Source: Lachnoanaerobaculum sp. OBRC5-5
Lineage (GTDB): Bacteria > Bacillota > Clostridia > Lachnospirales > Lachnospiraceae
DNA: 64,000 bases
Assembly: GCF_000296385.1 (NCBI RefSeq)
Contig: NZ_JH815185.1
Coordinates: 1,550,391-1,614,390, forward strand
Direction: 5' to 3'
How positions within the stretch are numbered: position 1 is the first letter of the stretch; the number at the start of each line of letters is the position of its first letter. The notes beneath the pieces are model-generated. The model had not been told where the DNA came from and did no database searches. It was given only the letters and a program-made list of their open reading frames with translations. A program made the position numbers and the translations under genes. Positions 55,064 to 64,000 of this stretch are shown here, piece after piece.

Positions 55064-55558
55064 CTAACTGTCCAACCTGCTCAGAAGCATATTATAAAAC
55101 CTTTGCCCTATATGTCTTCCGGATTTCTTCAGTTGTTCAATACATTCCTTTACATCTTCAGATGTCAGCACATTTTCCTCATAAGCCACCATAATTATAC
55201 CTATGGTACCCATCACTTTATGTCCCAGTTGTTTTGATATATCTCTCCCTTTCGCTTCATCCATTAATAGTACATCTGCATTTAACTCATCTGTTAAAAT
55301 TATCGCTTCACTCTCACCAACATCAAGTCCTGTAGCTCTCCTAAGAATATCTACCGCTTCCGGACTACATACTTTTCTAACTTCAATACAATTTTCATTT
55401 CTAATTATTTGTGCTTCTTCATGGAAACGTTTGTCTACTACCAATTCATTGAACACTGCTTCCGGCAGAAATATTTTTCCAAACAGCTTTTCCAATAACC
55501 ATATCTTGTCTATCTTTAAAAGAGAAATCAACGGCGTTGTATCAGAAACCACAATCAT
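55064..55558 (-). CDS. DUF3368 (PIN-like) toxin component
   Basis: 164 residues with PIN-domain traits: VSDTTPLISLL (first Asp), VGESEAIILTDE (acidic pair) and VLLMDEAKGRDI (third acidic residue). DUF3368 proteins are usually encoded beside UPF0175 genes and act as putative ribonuclease toxins. It overlaps the upstream gene by four bases. As no activity is known in this family member, toxin function is inferred from neighbourhood and fold. Confidence 0.82.
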   Translation of the reverse strand: MIVVSDTTPLISLLKIDKIWLLEKLFGKIFLPEAVFNELVVDKRFHEEAQIIRNENCIEVRKVCSPEAVDILRRATGLDVGESEAIILTDELNADVLLMDEAKGRDISKQLGHKVMGTIGIIMVAYEENVLTSEDVKECIEQLKKSGRHIGQRFYNMLLSRLDS

Positions 55559-55845
55559 AGTCGTGACCTTATACTTTTTAACTGCTTAAATGTATTTATA
55601 TCTTCTTCCAAATCATCTTGTATAAAATCATAATATGAATATCCAAGTTTATCATAAATCGTAATCAATTCCGACTTACTGATACCTAAGATTTCTGCTG
55701 CTCGTCCATGTGATATTGTTTGGTTATATATATATGGATATAAAAGCAAAGCATTTCTTCTAAGCTCAGACTCAGGATCTATTGCGACAAGATACCTTGA
55801 CATACCTATGGGCACATTAATAGTTACTGTCTCTGTAGTTACCAT
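55555..55845 (-). CDS. UPF0175-family antitoxin
   Basis: About 96 residues with the UPF0175 start TVTINVPIGMSRYL and a helix-turn-helix-like middle (NQTISHGRAAEILGISKSEL) that would bind DNA. The start was moved from 55878 to ATG 55845, which follows GGAGGG. It is the first gene of the antitoxin-toxin pair and likely autoregulates the promoter just upstream. Confidence 0.85.
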   Translation of the reverse strand: MVTTETVTINVPIGMSRYLVAIDPESELRRNALLLYPYIYNQTISHGRAAEILGISKSELITIYDKLGYSYYDFIQDDLEEDINTFKQLKSIRSRL

Positions 55846-55877
55846 ATTATCCCTCCATATGTTTTTTATTAAGTACA

Positions 55878-55906
55878 ATTATATATTTTTTATATATGCT
55901 ATGCAA
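55878..55906 (-). promoter_or_regulatory. Promoter of the antitoxin-toxin pair
   Basis: Minus strand TTGCAT (55901-55906), 17-base spacer, consensus TATAAT (55878-55883). It is 33 bases before the antitoxin start. Confidence 0.75.
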
Positions 55907-56722: not shown

Positions 56723-58945
56723 TCAAATTACTTTATCCTTCCAACCTATTACCCGCTCTCTCATCCCCTCTATATCCAGTACTCCATAGGCAAAACCCTT
56801 TCTTACAAGTTCTTCAGGAACAAATTCATCATATTTTTCAAATACAGGTACTTCCTTTTCATAAACCAAAGACATAGAATCTATTTCCTCTGCCGCTTTT
56901 TCGCTGACTATCTTATAGAATTCTTTTTCACTTACATTCATAGTAAATTGTATAAAATACGGCCTTGAGGGATTTAAACCTTTAAGTCCAAGTTCTTTTG
57001 CACAATGTACCTTTAAAAATCTCTCAAGTGCCAAAAACGCATGACTTCCAAGCCATGGAAATAAAGCCCACATATTCCCTCCAAGATGTATTAGCGGCTT
57101 ATTTGACAACTCGGCCTTTTTAGAGCAATCTCTGGCTTGTGCCAGTCTGCATCTACCATGACTCATCAAATACATATATGTATCTGATGAACTGAGTACA
57201 TCTTTCATTTTCTCCAGTACATGAGTATGTATATCTCCCGGAACATCTCCAAAATAAGCCGGAATATTTCCCTTTACCAAGCTTACATATATTGCTCTTC
57301 TTTTATGATCTACTTCCTCCACAATCCACACTCTACCTGCAATTGCAACTTTACCTCCTCTTTCCGGTGGTCTCACAACAGTTCCAAGTTCCTGTGAATC
57401 AGTTCTCACGGAATATTCTATATTCTCCTGAAAAACAGCATAAAATTTATAGTTATTTACAATTCTTTCACCCGAAATCCCCACTATAAGTCCACCGTTT
57501 TCAGTCCTGTTTATATGATCTGTCTTAAGCAAATGGAGCAACAAAAGCCTAAAATCATCTCGACTTATCCTTCTAAATGCAGACAGGCTAAGAACTCTTG
57601 ATGCCAGCTCGGCAGGTGTCATTTCTCCCATTGAAGCTAATGTGCTCATTGTTTGGTGGTAGAGCAAACTATATGGGAGTCTGTCAAGCCTTGGAGGCTC
57701 CACAAATCTTTCTTCCACATAGAGCTGTACCAAAGCTATACCCTGTACAAGATACCATGGTATCATTTCAGGCATCATTGCTCTTGGCTCCGGGTGATCT
57801 TCCCTCATCACAAACCACATTTCAGAAGGTGCTCCTCTCCTTCCTGTTCTTCCAAGTCTTTGCAAAAATCCGGATACTGTAAAAGGAGCATCTATTTGAA
57901 ATGCTCTCTCAAGTCTTCCTATATCAATTCCCAATTCAAGTGTCGCAGTAGCACATATCGATATCAAGGAATCCTCATCCTTCATCTCCTCTTCCGCACT
58001 CTCTCTATATGAAGCTGAGAGATTGCCGTGATGTATTAAAAATCTGTCGGATTCGTGATTTACCTCACAGTACTGTCTCAACTGTTGGCATACAATCTCA
58101 CATTCTTCTCTTGAGTTTGTAAATACCAGACACTTTTTCCCTTTTGTATGTTCAAATATATAAGCAAGTCCGGGATTTGCGCCTTTCGGTGCGTACCCGG
58201 TTTTTACCTCCTTTGCCGTATCCTCATAATCAATAGCCTGCGGCTCTGTATTAAAGAAATGTTCCATTGATAATCTCCAGGTTTCCTTTCCTCTATCAAA
58301 CTCAGGTATCAATGTTTTTCTCTTGCTTCCGGATGAAAGAAAATTCCCGGCAAGCCTCGGATTTCCTATGGTAGCGGAAAGCCCCACTCTTCTCGGATTA
58401 CATCCTGCCATCTTGCAAAGCCTTTCTATAAGACAAAATGTCTGTAAACCTCTGTCAGCTCGCAGCAAAGAATGTATTTCATCAATTACTATAAATCTTA
58501 GATCATGAAAAAGAGACGATATTTCCATATGCTTATTTATCATCAATGATTCCAATGATTCAGGTGTTATCTGTAAAATACCTGAAGGCTTTTTTAACAG
58601 TTTTCTCTTACCGGTCTGAGTCACATCACCATGCCATCTTGTTACCTTAATATCCGCTTCTTCACATATAAAATTCAGCCTTGAAAACTGGTCGTTTATA
58701 AGAGCTTTTAGCGGTGCTATATAAAGTACTCCCACACTGCTTGAAGGATTTTCCTCAAGCAAAGTCAATATCGGAAAGAATGCCGCCTCTGTTTTTCCTG
58801 AAGCTGTAGATGCCGTTAAAAGCAGGTTTTCATCAGTATTAAATAAAACGTCTGCAGCAGCATTTTGCACACATCTAAGCATCTGCCATCCCGAATTATA
58901 AATATATTCCCTTATAAAAGGAGCATATCTTTCATACGTGTTCAT
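56723..58945 (-). CDS. Lhr-like DEAD/DEAH helicase (BrxHI-like)
   Basis: 740-residue superfamily 2 helicase. Motifs in order: TASGKTEAAFFP (I, near residue 47), VIDEIHSLL (II, near 155), LSATIGN (III), VFTNSREE (IV), CATATLELGIDIG (V) and QRLGRTGRRG (VI, near 363). The C-terminal half follows the Lhr pattern with a winged-helix-like part and no extra domain. It ends the operon and overlaps the ATPase gene by four bases (ATGA). In BREX type 2 systems this kind of helicase (BrxHI) is also next to BrxD. Role in defence here is an inference. Confidence 0.88.
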   Translation of the reverse strand: MNTYERYAPFIREYIYNSGWQMLRCVQNAAADVLFNTDENLLLTASTASGKTEAAFFPILTLLEENPSSSVGVLYIAPLKALINDQFSRLNFICEEADIKVTRWHGDVTQTGKRKLLKKPSGILQITPESLESLMINKHMEISSLFHDLRFIVIDEIHSLLRADRGLQTFCLIERLCKMAGCNPRRVGLSATIGNPRLAGNFLSSGSKRKTLIPEFDRGKETWRLSMEHFFNTEPQAIDYEDTAKEVKTGYAPKGANPGLAYIFEHTKGKKCLVFTNSREECEIVCQQLRQYCEVNHESDRFLIHHGNLSASYRESAEEEMKDEDSLISICATATLELGIDIGRLERAFQIDAPFTVSGFLQRLGRTGRRGAPSEMWFVMREDHPEPRAMMPEMIPWYLVQGIALVQLYVEERFVEPPRLDRLPYSLLYHQTMSTLASMGEMTPAELASRVLSLSAFRRISRDDFRLLLLHLLKTDHINRTENGGLIVGISGERIVNNYKFYAVFQENIEYSVRTDSQELGTVVRPPERGGKVAIAGRVWIVEEVDHKRRAIYVSLVKGNIPAYFGDVPGDIHTHVLEKMKDVLSSSDTYMYLMSHGRCRLAQARDCSKKAELSNKPLIHLGGNMWALFPWLGSHAFLALERFLKVHCAKELGLKGLNPSRPYFIQFTMNVSEKEFYKIVSEKAAEEIDSMSLVYEKEVPVFEKYDEFVPEELVRKGFAYGVLDIEGMRERVIGWKDKVI

Positions 58946-60270
58946 AATGTAAACTCCACAAAATTTTCATCGGTATTATCTGATACCGCCTCCGACTTCG
59001 CAAAAGAGAAATCGGGAGATTCCAAAAGTTCATTTATTTTTAAATCCGGATTTTGATATATAAGATCCAAAAGCTCAATAAAATCCCTTATAACTTCTCT
59101 TGGAGTAATATTTTCTGTCGCTCCTATTCTAAAATACTCAAGTTTTATAAAATCATCCAACTCTATATCACTTAGTTTCCTATTATAGCCATAGAGTCCG
59201 GCATGCATATCTGAGAGTTTTTCACATAGTACAAGCATCTCCTCCGGAGTCAGTGCTTCAAGCCTTATTACAGGTGAGAGCAGATCTCTCATACCCGGCT
59301 TTGAAAATTTACCTTCCGAGAGTCTTGAACGAAGAGCCTCATAGCTGTATATTCCTCTTCTCTTATCTTCCAATGTCTGTGGCGTTGCACCCATTATAAT
59401 TCCGAGATATTTCGCCTTCCCCTGCAATGTGTCATTATACATTGTAAGCATCTTTTCATAATTATATTGTCTGGTAACAGCATTAGGTATCTTATATATA
59501 TTTACAAGTTCATCTACCATAATCATCATTCCGCTATAACCCGCAAGTCTGAAAAACATAGCAAACAGCTTTAAATACTCATACCAGTCCTCATCTGTGA
59601 TAATTATATTAACCCCAAGTGCTTCTTTTGCACCCGTCTTTGTGCTGTATTCACCTCTAAACCAACGAACGATTTTCATCTTTGTTTCATCGTCCCCGTC
59701 TATATAGGCATGATAGTATTTAGACAGTAGTGAACCGAACTCAAATCCGTGGACCATCTCTGAAAGTCCGGATATTACGGTAAATATTTTCTTATCCACC
59801 TCATCTAAAAGTTCTTTGCTTCCCGGTAATACTCCACGTTTTTCTATACAATCAGTCTGAATATTATTTATCCATTTGTCTAAAAGTAATGTTATTGCTC
59901 CACCTTCAGGCTTTGTTTTTGTAGACAAATTTCCTATAAGCTCTCTATATGTGGCAAGCCCCTGTCCTTTAGTTCCCTGCAGCCTTCTTTCCGGCGAAAG
60001 ATCCGCATCCGCTACTATAAAGCCCTTATCCATCACATAATTTCTTATAGTCTGTAATAAAAAGCTCTTTCCGCTACCGTATTTACCTACAATAAATCTA
60101 AATGAAGCACCACCTTCTGCCACTATATCCAAATCATGCAGCAATGCCTCTATCTCGTTTTTTCTGCCGACTGTAATATATGGCAAACCTGTTCTTGGAA
60201 CCACACCTCCCTTAAGTGAATTAATCAATGTTTGAGCAATTCTCTTAGGTACCTTTTTATCTTCATTCAT
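58942..60270 (-). CDS. BrxD-like ATP-binding protein (DUF2791)
   Basis: 442-residue P-loop ATPase. Walker A is GKYGSGKSFLLQ (near residue 65), preceded by GRKNEIEALLHDLD; Walker B is MIMVDELVN (near 250). The N-terminal opening AQTLINSLKGGVVPRTGLPYI and the PERRLQG segment after strand 2 are characteristic of the BrxD/DUF2791 family. It overlaps the TerB gene by eight bases upstream and the helicase gene by four bases downstream, so all three are made together. Confidence 0.88.
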   Translation of the reverse strand: MNEDKKVPKRIAQTLINSLKGGVVPRTGLPYITVGRKNEIEALLHDLDIVAEGGASFRFIVGKYGSGKSFLLQTIRNYVMDKGFIVADADLSPERRLQGTKGQGLATYRELIGNLSTKTKPEGGAITLLLDKWINNIQTDCIEKRGVLPGSKELLDEVDKKIFTVISGLSEMVHGFEFGSLLSKYYHAYIDGDDETKMKIVRWFRGEYSTKTGAKEALGVNIIITDEDWYEYLKLFAMFFRLAGYSGMMIMVDELVNIYKIPNAVTRQYNYEKMLTMYNDTLQGKAKYLGIIMGATPQTLEDKRRGIYSYEALRSRLSEGKFSKPGMRDLLSPVIRLEALTPEEMLVLCEKLSDMHAGLYGYNRKLSDIELDDFIKLEYFRIGATENITPREVIRDFIELLDLIYQNPDLKINELLESPDFSFAKSEAVSDNTDENFVEFTL

Positions 60271-62170
60271 ATATCTCTCCTATGATATTCAAAATATCCT
60301 CTCTATAATCCTCTACCAAATATATTTCATCGCCTTCACATTCCAATATATTGTCACCTATATCTTCAAAGAAAGTCTCATTTATATTGTCGGTAATAAT
60401 TGATGTAAACAGATTATTTGACTTTATCAGACTTTTATAATCCTTTCCTGCAATAATAAACTTTAGGATCTTTAAATTTATATTATCTGATATTTCCGGC
60501 GGTTTATCAAAATCTAAGTTTTCTGATTTACTCTGATTACCGTCATTATATTTTATAGAATTCTTTTCGATAGTATTTTGTATATCAGCCTTTTCAACTA
60601 TATCTGTATTTATCACCTGAGAATGTATACAATCTTCATCTACAAGCAAACTTGTCTTTGTAATTTCCGCATCGTTTCGAATCTTTTTTAATGCAGAAAA
60701 GTCTATATTTATCAGGTTTCTTTCATTGTGTTTTATTTTCTTAAGAGCTTCGTTAAATGCAGATGCAATAATGGTGGCAATCCGGGTATCTTCAATACTT
60801 GGTTTCAAATAATATCCAAGCTTAAATTCATCTCTGATCAATCTGTCAATTTCATGGACTATAGATGCAAGTTTCTTCTTATTAAAGTATGCTCTTATAT
60901 AAGATTTTTCCTTCCACCTGCCTGTTTTGCAATGATAAGACCTCACCCCGTTTACTATATATTCTGCATCTTCCTCTGTTTTATCATTCCAATAAACCGC
61001 ATTTAATAACGGATATATGCTTCTGTTTTGCAGCCTCCCAAAGCAATGTGTAAATATACTTTTGCCGTCAATATTTCCGCTCTTTAATATATATTTCCAC
61101 ACATAGGCATATATAATTATACTTTTCTCTCTTTCCTTTTTAATACTTACGGAATTTAAAAATCTCTTACCGGCAAAAAAACATATGGCATCAAATATTT
61201 CCATATCTTCATAATCTTCGGATTTTTTCAAAATTTCAAGTGCATGATCTCTGTCTAATATCTCTTTATCAATATATTTTTTTACCTCATCCACCGGAAA
61301 GCCTTTAACAAGCAAATACTCAAAATACCATCTGTGTAAATTCCTTTTTATCTGTGTATTATCTTCTAAAAAACCGCCTTCTATAAATTCTTCTTCAAAC
61401 TCTTTAAGTTTGTTCAAACTCTCAACAGATGAAGAACTGCCTATGCCGCAAAGAAGCTCATAGATATATAGGTAAATAAAGGATGTAAAGGTTTTGTTAT
61501 ATACGCCGTTCCTAACTTCAGTTCTCCATGTGAAATAAGTTCTCAATTGTTTATCACTCAAATCATGGTATGTAGTAAAATAACCCGAAATATCACATAC
61601 CTGCCCATGATAATCATCCTCATAATCTTCCATAAACTTGGCCTGCCTATAGAAGTTTCTAGCTCTTAATTGTCCGGAATAATCATCATATCTATACAGT
61701 TTTCTCATTTCAGTGATTTTCTCCGGGATACACTCCTTTTTCTTTAGAAAATCACTCCCTTTTGCAAATGGTAAAGGCGTATCCGTATATACAGTTTTAC
61801 TTTTACCTGTATCTGATAAAGCTGTGTCTTTAGACGGATTGCCTTGCAATATCGCATTATCAAATAATTCAAATATATAATCTCTATCAGTTTTATCATT
61901 AAATGATATGCCTATCCAACTACTACCATGCATACGCAAAGGATCAACTATATACTCTTTTATCCTGTCAGATAAACTTGCTTCATATTTCAAATCACAA
62001 TGTTCCATCCATCTTCCGGTATCGGAATTCCACTCCTTTATAAGAAGCGCAATCATCTTTCCCGTTAAAGGATGGCACAGTCTTGACATAGTTAAAGAGC
62101 TATCCCATCTGTCGGACTCTTCAATATTATGTTTTTCTTTTATATAATCTAACAGCTCCTTTAATTCCAT
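60263..62170 (-). CDS. TerB-N / TerB-C domain protein
   Basis: 635 residues. Residues about 165-270 match TerB-N, with YSGQLRARNFYRQAKFM and DLSDKQLRTYFTWRTEVRNG; the C-terminal region (about 430-635) matches TerB-C with IDFSALKKIRNDAEITKTSLL. A central helical part links the two. TerB-type proteins were first named in tellurite resistance operons, and standalone versions associate with DNA-processing genes; no direct role is known for this one. AAGGATGG precedes the ATG. The first gene of the three-gene operon, so it may sense or scaffold the ATPase-helicase pair. Confidence 0.85.
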   Translation of the reverse strand: MELKELLDYIKEKHNIEESDRWDSSLTMSRLCHPLTGKMIALLIKEWNSDTGRWMEHCDLKYEASLSDRIKEYIVDPLRMHGSSWIGISFNDKTDRDYIFELFDNAILQGNPSKDTALSDTGKSKTVYTDTPLPFAKGSDFLKKKECIPEKITEMRKLYRYDDYSGQLRARNFYRQAKFMEDYEDDYHGQVCDISGYFTTYHDLSDKQLRTYFTWRTEVRNGVYNKTFTSFIYLYIYELLCGIGSSSSVESLNKLKEFEEEFIEGGFLEDNTQIKRNLHRWYFEYLLVKGFPVDEVKKYIDKEILDRDHALEILKKSEDYEDMEIFDAICFFAGKRFLNSVSIKKEREKSIIIYAYVWKYILKSGNIDGKSIFTHCFGRLQNRSIYPLLNAVYWNDKTEEDAEYIVNGVRSYHCKTGRWKEKSYIRAYFNKKKLASIVHEIDRLIRDEFKLGYYLKPSIEDTRIATIIASAFNEALKKIKHNERNLINIDFSALKKIRNDAEITKTSLLVDEDCIHSQVINTDIVEKADIQNTIEKNSIKYNDGNQSKSENLDFDKPPEISDNINLKILKFIIAGKDYKSLIKSNNLFTSIITDNINETFFEDIGDNILECEGDEIYLVEDYREDILNIIGEIYE

Positions 62171-62189: not shown

Positions 62190-62242
62190 CACAAAAAGGT
62201 CTGAATCCTCTTACAAGAAAACTTGTATCAGGTTTCAGACCT
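62190..62242 (-). terminator. Large hairpin terminator just upstream of the TerB gene
   Basis: AGGTCTGAA (62234-62242 on the minus strand) pairs with TTCAGACCT (62197-62205); inside, TACAAG pairs with CTTGTA; the minus strand then reads into TTTTTG. It ends the broken exonuclease gene transcript and stands only 27 bases before the TerB ATG, with no room for a promoter in between. Confidence 0.85.
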
Positions 62243-62258
62243 GTAGGCATCACTAATA

Positions 62259-62687
62259 TTATGCAACAGCAAAACTTGACAAATCAAACAGACTGCCTAG
62301 AGATGTTCCAAAATCTGTAGGCCTCATAGCTTCCGCTATCTTACTTAGTGTATTATCAAACAGTTCACGATCTTTAAAAATATGGAAAAGCTTTGCTGTA
62401 TTTCTTGCATCATCTACACCAAGACACCGGTTTGAAAACATCTTTATTGCCTCGTCAAATTTAGGTGCATTTATAACCATATCGTAGGTAATTCCTGTCA
62501 GGTCCCTCACTATTGATGTAATTCTTGTATTGTACTCAGGTTTTACATAGGTTCTGAATGATGATATCTCCTAAAAGTTTTCATCCAACATTATAGCACC
62601 TATTTCAATAGTCTCCATAGTACATCCAAGATTTCTATACTCTTTTACAACTTTGTTCATTTCCAAATCAACTACGATATGCTTCAT
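62259..62687 (-). pseudogene. Broken DnaQ-like (DEDD) 3'-5' exonuclease
   Basis: The frame starts at ATG 62687 after GGAGG, reads MKHIVVDLEMN (with the first DxE exonuclease motif) and continues with EIGAIMLDENF, then meets an in-frame TAG at 62571-62573 (codon 39). The same frame goes on with EISSFRTYVKPEYN and ITSIVRDLTGITYDMV, all typical for KapD-like exonucleases. Soon after, the sequence jumps from the end of motif II to LGVDDARNTAKL (the last motif), so about 70-90 residues of the middle are missing. Two separate lesions make this a clear pseudogene. Confidence 0.85.
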
Positions 62688-62850: not shown

Positions 62851-64000
62851 TTACAGTACCGGAATAATAATTTCTACACGTCGATTCAACTGTTTTCCTT
62901 CAGCTGTCTCATTTGTTGCCACCGGTCTGCTTTCTCCATATCCGTTTGTAGTAATATTGGCAGTAACACCTGCAGATTGTAAGTAGCTCTTTACAGAATT
63001 TGCACGATTCTCTGACAGTGTCTGGTTATGTGCATCATCCGCATCGGAGTCGGTATGTCCGTCTATTTCAAAATCGGTTATATTTGACTCTATTAAAATC
63101 TTTGCAAGATTATTTAGAGTTTCCTCCGCATCAGGTCTGATATTATATTTGTCAACATCAAACAATACTCCTGAATCCAGAGTTATCATTATACTGTTTG
63201 CCTCTATTGCAGGCACTGCAGGAACCGCACTGAGTAAAGGCAGTTTATATGAGAAAACCAACGGCTTTGCATCAACTTCCTTCTCTTTACCCTTAAATGT
63301 AATAACAGCTTTTCCCTTACCGTCATTCTCTATTCCGAGACCTGTTTTCTTGTTCTTATAGCTTCCCGATCCGTTACCGTTTACTTCAATATCCATATTT
63401 TGATCTCTGTATATTACATACTGAGTATCTACAGATATACTTAAATTGGTTTCCGACTTGGTATACAAACCTGTTCCGTCTGCATCTACCATCAAATGTA
63501 TACCATATCTGTCATCTGAATAATTTCCGGATCCGTCTGCTTCCACTTGCAATGTAATTCCTTTATTAGAATCCAAGTATTGTCCCGATCCGTCGGTTTC
63601 TCTTTGTATAGTAATTCCTTTTTCACTGTCAATGTATTGTCCGGACCCGTCTCCCTCGGTCTGAACCGTAGTATTTCCGTCCGCATACTGTCCTGAACCG
63701 TTTTCACCCACCTGCACCGATGTTGTACCTCTTATAATCCGGTCATTTTCAACTTTAACAGGTGTTACTGTAATACCTGGCACTGATGAAAGGCTTTTTG
63801 TAGCGTCCATTTTTATTTTTGCATCAGCATTCTCATCTATACCAAGTGGAGGCAATACTACAACCGGAACCTCAGGAATCTCTCCAAGTGCATACCCCGG
63901 GACTTTTAATTCATCCTCATTCACCTTACTCTCAGCTTTTGTAGTCTCTGCAGTAGTTTCTTCCTTTGATGATTCAACTACAGCACTGCTGCTTTCTTTG
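62851..64000 (-). CDS. OmpA-family cell-envelope protein with repeated beta motifs (5' end off window)
   Basis: The coding frame continues past the window end: the GTG at 63924 is preceded in frame by a Ser/Glu/Thr-rich run, so the gene's start is outside. The visible part has a low-complexity linker, a region of five to seven repeats (about 20 residues; GDGSGQY.DS..GITIQ), and a C-terminal OmpA-like peptidoglycan-binding domain (LFDVDKYNIRPDAEETL, DGHTDSDADD, LSENRANSVKSYL, NRRVEI). It is probably a lipoprotein or secreted protein that binds the cell wall; the Ser/Thr/Glu linker supports outside location. Confidence 0.88.
   Translation of the reverse strand, partial: KESSSAVVESSKEETTAETTKAESKVNEDELKVPGYALGEIPEVPVVVLPPLGIDENADAKIKMDATKSLSSVPGITVTPVKVENDRIIRGTTSVQVGENGSGQYADGNTTVQTEGDGSGQYIDSEKGITIQRETDGSGQYLDSNKGITLQVEADGSGNYSDDRYGIHLMVDADGTGLYTKSETNLSISVDTQYVIYRDQNMDIEVNGNGSGSYKNKKTGLGIENDGKGKAVITFKGKEKEVDAKPLVFSYKLPLLSAVPAVPAIEANSIMITLDSGVLFDVDKYNIRPDAEETLNNLAKILIESNITDFEIDGHTDSDADDAHNQTLSENRANSVKSYLQSAGVTANITTNGYGESRPVATNETAEGKQLNRRVEIIIPVL

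Follow-up and report, generated by a model that had tools for sequence, protein, structure and literature searches.

The 64,000-nucleotide stretch of Lachnoanaerobaculum sp. OBRC5-5 analysed here (contig NZ_JH815185.1, positions 1,550,391 to 1,614,390; hereafter the window) carries three consecutive minus-strand open reading frames (ORFs), sngA, sngB and sngC, which almost certainly represent Shango, an anti-phage system that is already known and published. We confirmed the three ORFs, with overlaps of 8 bases between sngA and sngB and 4 bases between sngB and sngC, as had been stated in a preliminary description that read them as one operon. Their features are listed below with E-values in brackets; alignment A1 comprises 61 SngA sequences, the window protein included.

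60263-62170, minus strand: sngA, lead gene of the Shango operon, 635 amino acids (PADLOC SngA 6.7e-58; TerB_N 9.7e-22; TerB_C 5.3e-13).
61838-62170, minus strand: SngA residues 1-111, YjbR/DUF419-type double-wing domain (A1 profile, Foldseek, VIA-align).
61205-61741, minus strand: SngA residues 144-322, TerB_N, PF13208 (Pfam 9.7e-22; found in 61/61 members of A1).
60293-60751, minus strand: SngA residues 474-626, TerB_C, PF15615 (Pfam 5.3e-13).
58942-60270, minus strand: sngB, BrxC/BrxD-family ATPase, 442 amino acids (PADLOC SngB 1.4e-187, residues 3-442; BrxC_BrxD, PF10923, 2.8e-166).
60064-60087, minus strand: SngB Walker A, residues 62-69, GKYGSGKS (motif inspection).
59509-59529, minus strand: SngB Walker B, residues 248-254, MMIMVDE (motif inspection).
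56723-58945, minus strand: sngC, superfamily 2 helicase, 740 amino acids (PADLOC SngC 1.7e-275, residues 3-730; DEAD 1.9e-28; Helicase_C 1.7e-18).

Residues G62, G65, G67, K68, S69, D253 and E254 of SngB are invariant in 47/47 aligned SngB sequences. The DEIH, SAT and LGRTGRR motifs of SngC are likewise intact, and an additional Pfam match of this protein to the Lhr winged helix lies below threshold. No nuclease domain was recognised in SngA, SngB or SngC by Pfam, NCBI-model and PADLOC scans.

In PADLOC, each of the three proteins has its Shango counterpart (SngA, SngB or SngC) as top match, the latter two being covered almost end to end, and the arrangement is that of Shango: an SngA with TerB_N and TerB_C comes first, SngB second and SngC third, independently of bacteriophage exclusion (BREX) genes. 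The same models also match plasmid-borne trios of Paenibacillus, Klebsiella and Sulfitobacter, as well as the SngA of an Aeromonas plasmid. The study of Shango in Escherichia coli is reportedly that of Millman in 2022. In excerpts of PMC10250203, which credits a separate study with the finding in E. coli, the system of Pseudomonas aeruginosa is described as a TerB-like protein, an ATPase and a helicase, the PA14 operon conferring modest protection, by a factor of 10-100, against many of the phages tried but not against every one; its mechanism is listed as unknown in the corresponding part of a 2026 review (PMC12926258). The earlier suggestion of a candidate anti-phage complex was right, and the remark that such a unit has little description was mistaken, given that Shango has been named and tested in print (PMC10250203, as excerpted). 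Its identification removes the candidate of a new minimal BREX and renders the finding mostly ordinary.

SngA of the window consists of a YjbR domain followed by TerB_N and TerB_C, without the central TerB domain (PF05099) that a review lists for Shango in its relevant section (PMC10952713). The preliminary description of a TerB lead protein was borne out for TerB_N and TerB_C; the central TerB is absent, and the N-terminal YjbR-like domain had been overlooked. None of the 61 A1 members, the window protein included, matches central TerB at E<=1. When 16 SngA proteins without YjbR were scanned for it, three (L133, L135, L193) scored above the cut-off, one (L196) was weak and 12 lacked it; SngA proteins from plasmids of Klebsiella, Sulfitobacter and Azospirillum carry the domain, and it is weak, below the cut-off, in a haloarchaeon. 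In this regard, the 528-position PADLOC SngA model spans 728 residues of a TerB-bearing SngA and 545 residues of a TerB-less one. Because the TerB-less protein fits the model more compactly and scores slightly higher, we treat central TerB as non-defining for Shango.

The PADLOC match begins at residue 107 of SngA, and the N-terminal domain was assigned by other means. A profile built from A1 matches PDB entries 2kfp/3h9x (PSPTO_3016) at E=8.8e-12 over SngA residues 1-109, and a Foldseek search with the predicted SngA model retrieves 3h9x at E=5.5e-4 (template modelling score of 0.77 to the target). In line with these matches, VIA-align superimposes the model of residues 1-111 on 3h9x with Z=14.0 (root-mean-square deviation 2.8, 111 aligned), on 2a1v with Z=10.5 and on 2fki with Z=9.2, the fold being of the double-wing CyaY-like type; the superposition with E. 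coli YjbR gives a Z of 9.2. The Pfam YjbR model (PF04237) is found in 28/61 A1 members, at best with 8.1e-6, and SngA of the window itself gives no match to it at E<=1. The MmcQ/YjbR family is described, in the portion of PMC7641849 that deals with it, as likely DNA-binding and double-winged, and as also fused to TerB, for which Anantharaman and colleagues 2012 are cited. The YjbR-TerB fusion is thus already in print and is not claimed as new; no link between YjbR and Shango appears in the titles or abstract starts among the literature matches listed. The middle of SngA has no solid match, and a C-terminal winged helix (residues 562-635) was rejected as weak, its Z of 5.0 at best lying within the range that the tool calls common.

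The presence of YjbR in other loci, scored with the A1-derived profile, is uneven. The domain occurs in 68/80 loci found with SngA, where the query biases the sample, in 6/24 loci found through SngB among relatives beyond the genus (13 are without it and 5 have no SngA seen), and in 0/23 loci of the phylum sample (20 without it, 3 with no SngA seen). On a 126-row SngB tree, a quick build with many weak forks, all 67 YjbR rows fall into one 79-row group (Shimodaira-Hasegawa-like approximate likelihood-ratio test 97), alongside 12 rows without YjbR, and its distribution takes 9 changes compared with 36.6 in shuffles. The simplest reading of this history is one gain followed by several losses. 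Within the genus, SngA of L. orale (G001) has 516 amino acids and opens with residues similar to the initial helix of the YjbR domain, as though the main part of that domain had been deleted. SngA of G003 begins in the same way, although the gene holds an unsequenced gap, and in G005 the YjbR part is encoded as a separate ORF.

Elsewhere, the N-terminal slot of SngA is occupied by other regions or by little at all. A TM2 membrane domain is located at the N-terminus of SngA in L176, L180 and L196 (a haloarchaeal plasmid and the genomes of two Bacillota), and in L165, L166, L169, L172 and L197 TerB_N is preceded by several hundred residues in which no known domain is seen; some of these long ORFs may start too early, L197 being the only one of the five with an annotated start. 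As a separate observation, the SngA frame of L131 (10552-13221, minus strand) also includes a radical-SAM domain at the N-terminus, 889 amino acids in total, for which a fusion and a wrong start are both possible.

The three proteins differ in how well they are conserved. Compared with the five other genus genomes, the window shows 50-88% identity in SngA and 84-97% in SngB; the corresponding values against G001 are 52% for SngA, 85% for SngB and 83% for SngC. Among the named loci that lie beyond the genus, identity to the window is about 70-81% for SngB and SngC and 32-40% for SngA. Purifying selection acts on each of the three genes, with ratios of non-synonymous to synonymous substitution rates (dN/dS) of 0.13-0.21 for SngA and 0.04-0.10 for SngB and SngC, several dS values above 1 being saturated. 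On these comparisons, SngA drifts faster than SngB and SngC. That SngB and SngC keep their higher identity while SngA diverges and has its N-terminal domain swapped or dropped, even within one genus, points to SngA as the recognition part of the system.

These observations allow us to propose, tentatively and at somewhat less than even odds, that SngA could be an adaptor whose N-terminus forms a targeting slot with exchangeable content (YjbR here, TM2 elsewhere, long unknown regions in Paenibacillus and others) set on a constant SngB-SngC motor, so that the cellular location at which the phage genome is encountered would vary between Shango systems; central TerB would then be optional and not the sensor. 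A division of labour among the three proteins is possible with a similar reserve. SngA would contact DNA as a sensor or adaptor through its double-wing YjbR domain, SngB, as an ATPase of the AAA+ class (ATPases associated with diverse cellular activities), would oligomerise and load or gate SngC, and SngC would unwind or translocate on invading DNA, with the result that phage replication would be stalled. As the scans recognised no nuclease domain in any of the three proteins, the effect would be blocking or remodelling, not cutting. The likely role of the trio is thus that of an anti-phage complex powered by ATP and built around a helicase. The idea of a loader acting on a helicase is borrowed from a proposal for the BrxD-BrxHI pair, in which BrxD is classed as an ATPase of the origin recognition complex (ORC)/Cdc6-type AAA+ group with a possible part in loading or activating BrxHI (PMC12839542, section 24). 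SngC is grouped with BrxHI, DruE and DpdJ in PMC12278908, as defence helicases that potentially form a clade of their own. For the mechanism of Shango, the natural pairs with and without YjbR offer a handle, and the domain variation of SngA is worth following up.

With regard to distribution, an SngB-like match was found in 29/145 relatives (E<=1e-20) and is absent from 116; the operon is present in 6/6 genus genomes, the window's own included, but in only 23 of the other 139 relatives, so that the possibility of a housekeeping unit of all relatives holds in part, for the genus. Two matches, in G123 and G134, reach only 6.3e-58 and 2.6e-47 and form long branches on the SngB tree, and these proteins may lie outside SngB proper. 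Over the phylum, SngB occurs in 25/398 genomes drawn (E<=1e-60, own included). SngB-like genes were found on 691/72,556 plasmid records, 542 of the 691 being typed conjugative, and SngB on 0/50,697 phage records. The order A-B-C on one strand is seen in 67/80 named loci found with SngA; of the remaining 13, eight reach a contig end and five (L073, L085, L092, L096, L105) lack the order in the stretch covered. In L124 and L128, SngB and SngC form pairs with no SngA recognised by profiles. In Sulfitobacter (L133, 6015-10826), the Shango trio is directly followed by genes for a nuclease of the PD-(D/E)XK type and a helicase of the UvrD type, a possible five-gene extension.

SngB of the window shares 71-79% identity with rows titled Bacteroidota, Spirochaetota and Planctomycetota, the firmest cross-phylum case being the complete chromosome of Treponema putidum (L094, SngB 74%). 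Frequent cross-phylum transfer is not claimed: a tree of 71 SngB sequences needs 5 phylum changes (minimum 4), and most non-Bacillota rows are metagenome bins.

Two further features lie near the operon:

62197-62242, minus strand: hairpin and T run between the gene before and sngA (-26.6 kcal/mol, z -3.43).
55064-55878, minus strand: toxin-antitoxin pair, DUF3368/PIN-like plus UPF0175-like, PADLOC PDC-S70 (Pfam, PADLOC).

The hairpin, whose sequence is kept in 2/4 other genus genomes aligned and different in the remaining two, is probably the terminator of the preceding gene; since it separates sngA from that gene, we infer that sngABC likely has its own transcript start. No RNA family was found near sngABC at gathering score. 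The gene upstream of sngA (62262-62687, minus strand) is exonuclease-like and broken here by an in-frame stop and an internal deletion, intact copies of about 220 amino acids being present in other genus genomes. Further on, 62851-63924 (minus strand) encodes a repeat-rich protein with an OmpA-family C-terminal domain (Pfam 2.2e-21) that also matches the PADLOC MotB-like ZorB models. The UPF0175-like match of the toxin-antitoxin pair falls just under the Pfam cut-off (24.1 vs 27.9 bits). This pair is present in 3/6 genus genomes, in the gap between sngC and the haloacid dehalogenase (HAD) gene in two of them and in the gap between the HAD and major facilitator superfamily (MFS) genes in the window; given this partial presence and differing side of the HAD gene, it lies outside the Shango unit and moves independently.

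Taken together, our findings lead us to regard sngABC as a Shango anti-phage operon, with a probability of roughly 75%, and the same figure holds for a function against phages in this host. The PADLOC identity, the A-B-C order in 67/80 loci, the carriage on plasmids, the patchy occurrence in 29/145 relatives and the lack of PglZ speak for it. Several observations weigh on the other side. The site of sngABC in the genus is constant, between the exonuclease-like gene and a HAD-MFS-glycosyltransferase stretch (6/6 genomes, own included), which is unusual for a defence system. Additionally, the neighbours show no defence enrichment: PADLOC families at E<=1e-15 number 9 among 147 neighbours and 8 among 143 controls, a small sample. 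The neighbours were complete, non-overlapping, non-Sng ORFs of at least 100 amino acids around 14 related operons (L118-L131), and the controls were taken elsewhere in 11 of these 14 genomes. Of the 14 control stretches, 10 reached the full length of 18 kb and 4 stopped short at a contig end; L203 contained no ORF. From 158 control ORFs, 143 were used, the 15 left out being the 12 ORFs of L206, the two of L209 and the final one of L211. The family mad3 accounts for 4 proteins in each set, PDC types S01 and S27 occur only among neighbours, and other PDC types only among controls. A defence island is thus rejected, the neighbours of related operons being no richer in PADLOC families than controls, and the toxin-antitoxin pair, previously taken as fitting a defence neighbourhood, does not serve as such a sign. 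Moreover, no phage assay of a clostridial Shango is among the literature matches listed, the SngB model is middling (predicted local distance difference test 66) with no Foldseek match at E<=0.001, and YjbR, missing or detached in 3/6 genus genomes (G001, G003, G005), is not essential to the system. The best Foldseek rows for SngB, RdrA and other AAA+ rings, were not used as evidence.

The conserved site, the purifying selection on all three genes and the lack of a defence-island signal at related loci would also suit an operon that has become, in this genus, a chromosomal DNA-processing or genome-maintenance unit instead of an active phage defence. We consider this unlikely, as 116/145 relatives have no match, the genus identities of 50-88% for SngA against 84-97% for SngB look more like those of a factor in conflict, and homologues reside on plasmids that are largely typed conjugative. 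An assignment to a Ter-type response to metal or oxidative stress, to which TerB_N and TerB_C of SngA might point, as might a 2012 analysis of Ter systems (doi 10.1039/c2mb25239b) whose title mentions DNA processing, is highly improbable: the central TerB is absent, the genome's single TerB_N place is sngA, and Shango acted on phages where tested, in P. aeruginosa (PMC10250203, excerpted text). That the operon is a remnant or minimal BREX type 2 is scarcely credible, for the BrxD and BrxHI profiles do match SngB and SngC at 2.3e-45 and 3.9e-126, but the NCBI BrxD equivalog model gives SngB 154.6 bits against a cut-off of 350, the Shango models score far above BrxD/BrxHI in PADLOC, the first gene carries TerB_N/TerB_C, and PglZ (PF08665) has no match in the whole genome (no search was aimed at PglX) and occurs in only 4/29 genomes with SngB-like genes, either on a different contig (G005, G077) or at a distance of over 300 kb (G001, G003), never beside the trio. 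The BrxC/BrxD family (PF10923) has a single place in the genome, sngB, and the BrxHI profile was discarded as a BREX marker, since it matches several helicases and also matches in 14/14 control genomes.

The preliminary view of one operon, with an ATPase and a helicase akin to those of BREX but no core genes of that system, was sound. Profile searches with Pfam and PADLOC did not fail, and the concern that the trio might always accompany BREX proved unfounded; overall, the observation is confirmed and its interpretation partly supported. Among known systems, the BrxD-BrxHI dyad of BREX type 2 (PMC12839542) resembles the operon in its adjacent ATPase and helicase of the same families as SngB and SngC, and differs in that here the genome has no PglZ, the BrxD cut-off is missed and a TerB_N/TerB_C gene leads. 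The fold of SngA residues 1-111 is shared, at 18-21% identity, by proteins of the MmcQ/YjbR family (PF04237), among them PSPTO_3016 and YjbR of E. coli, whereas the SngA domain is fused to TerB_N/TerB_C in a three-gene operon. The closest likeness is to Shango itself (PADLOC PDLC03958-03960; PMC10250203), with the same gene order, an SngA carrying TerB_N/TerB_C, an SngB ATPase and an SngC helicase; compared with it by PADLOC model, SngA here adds an N-terminal YjbR domain and is without the central TerB.

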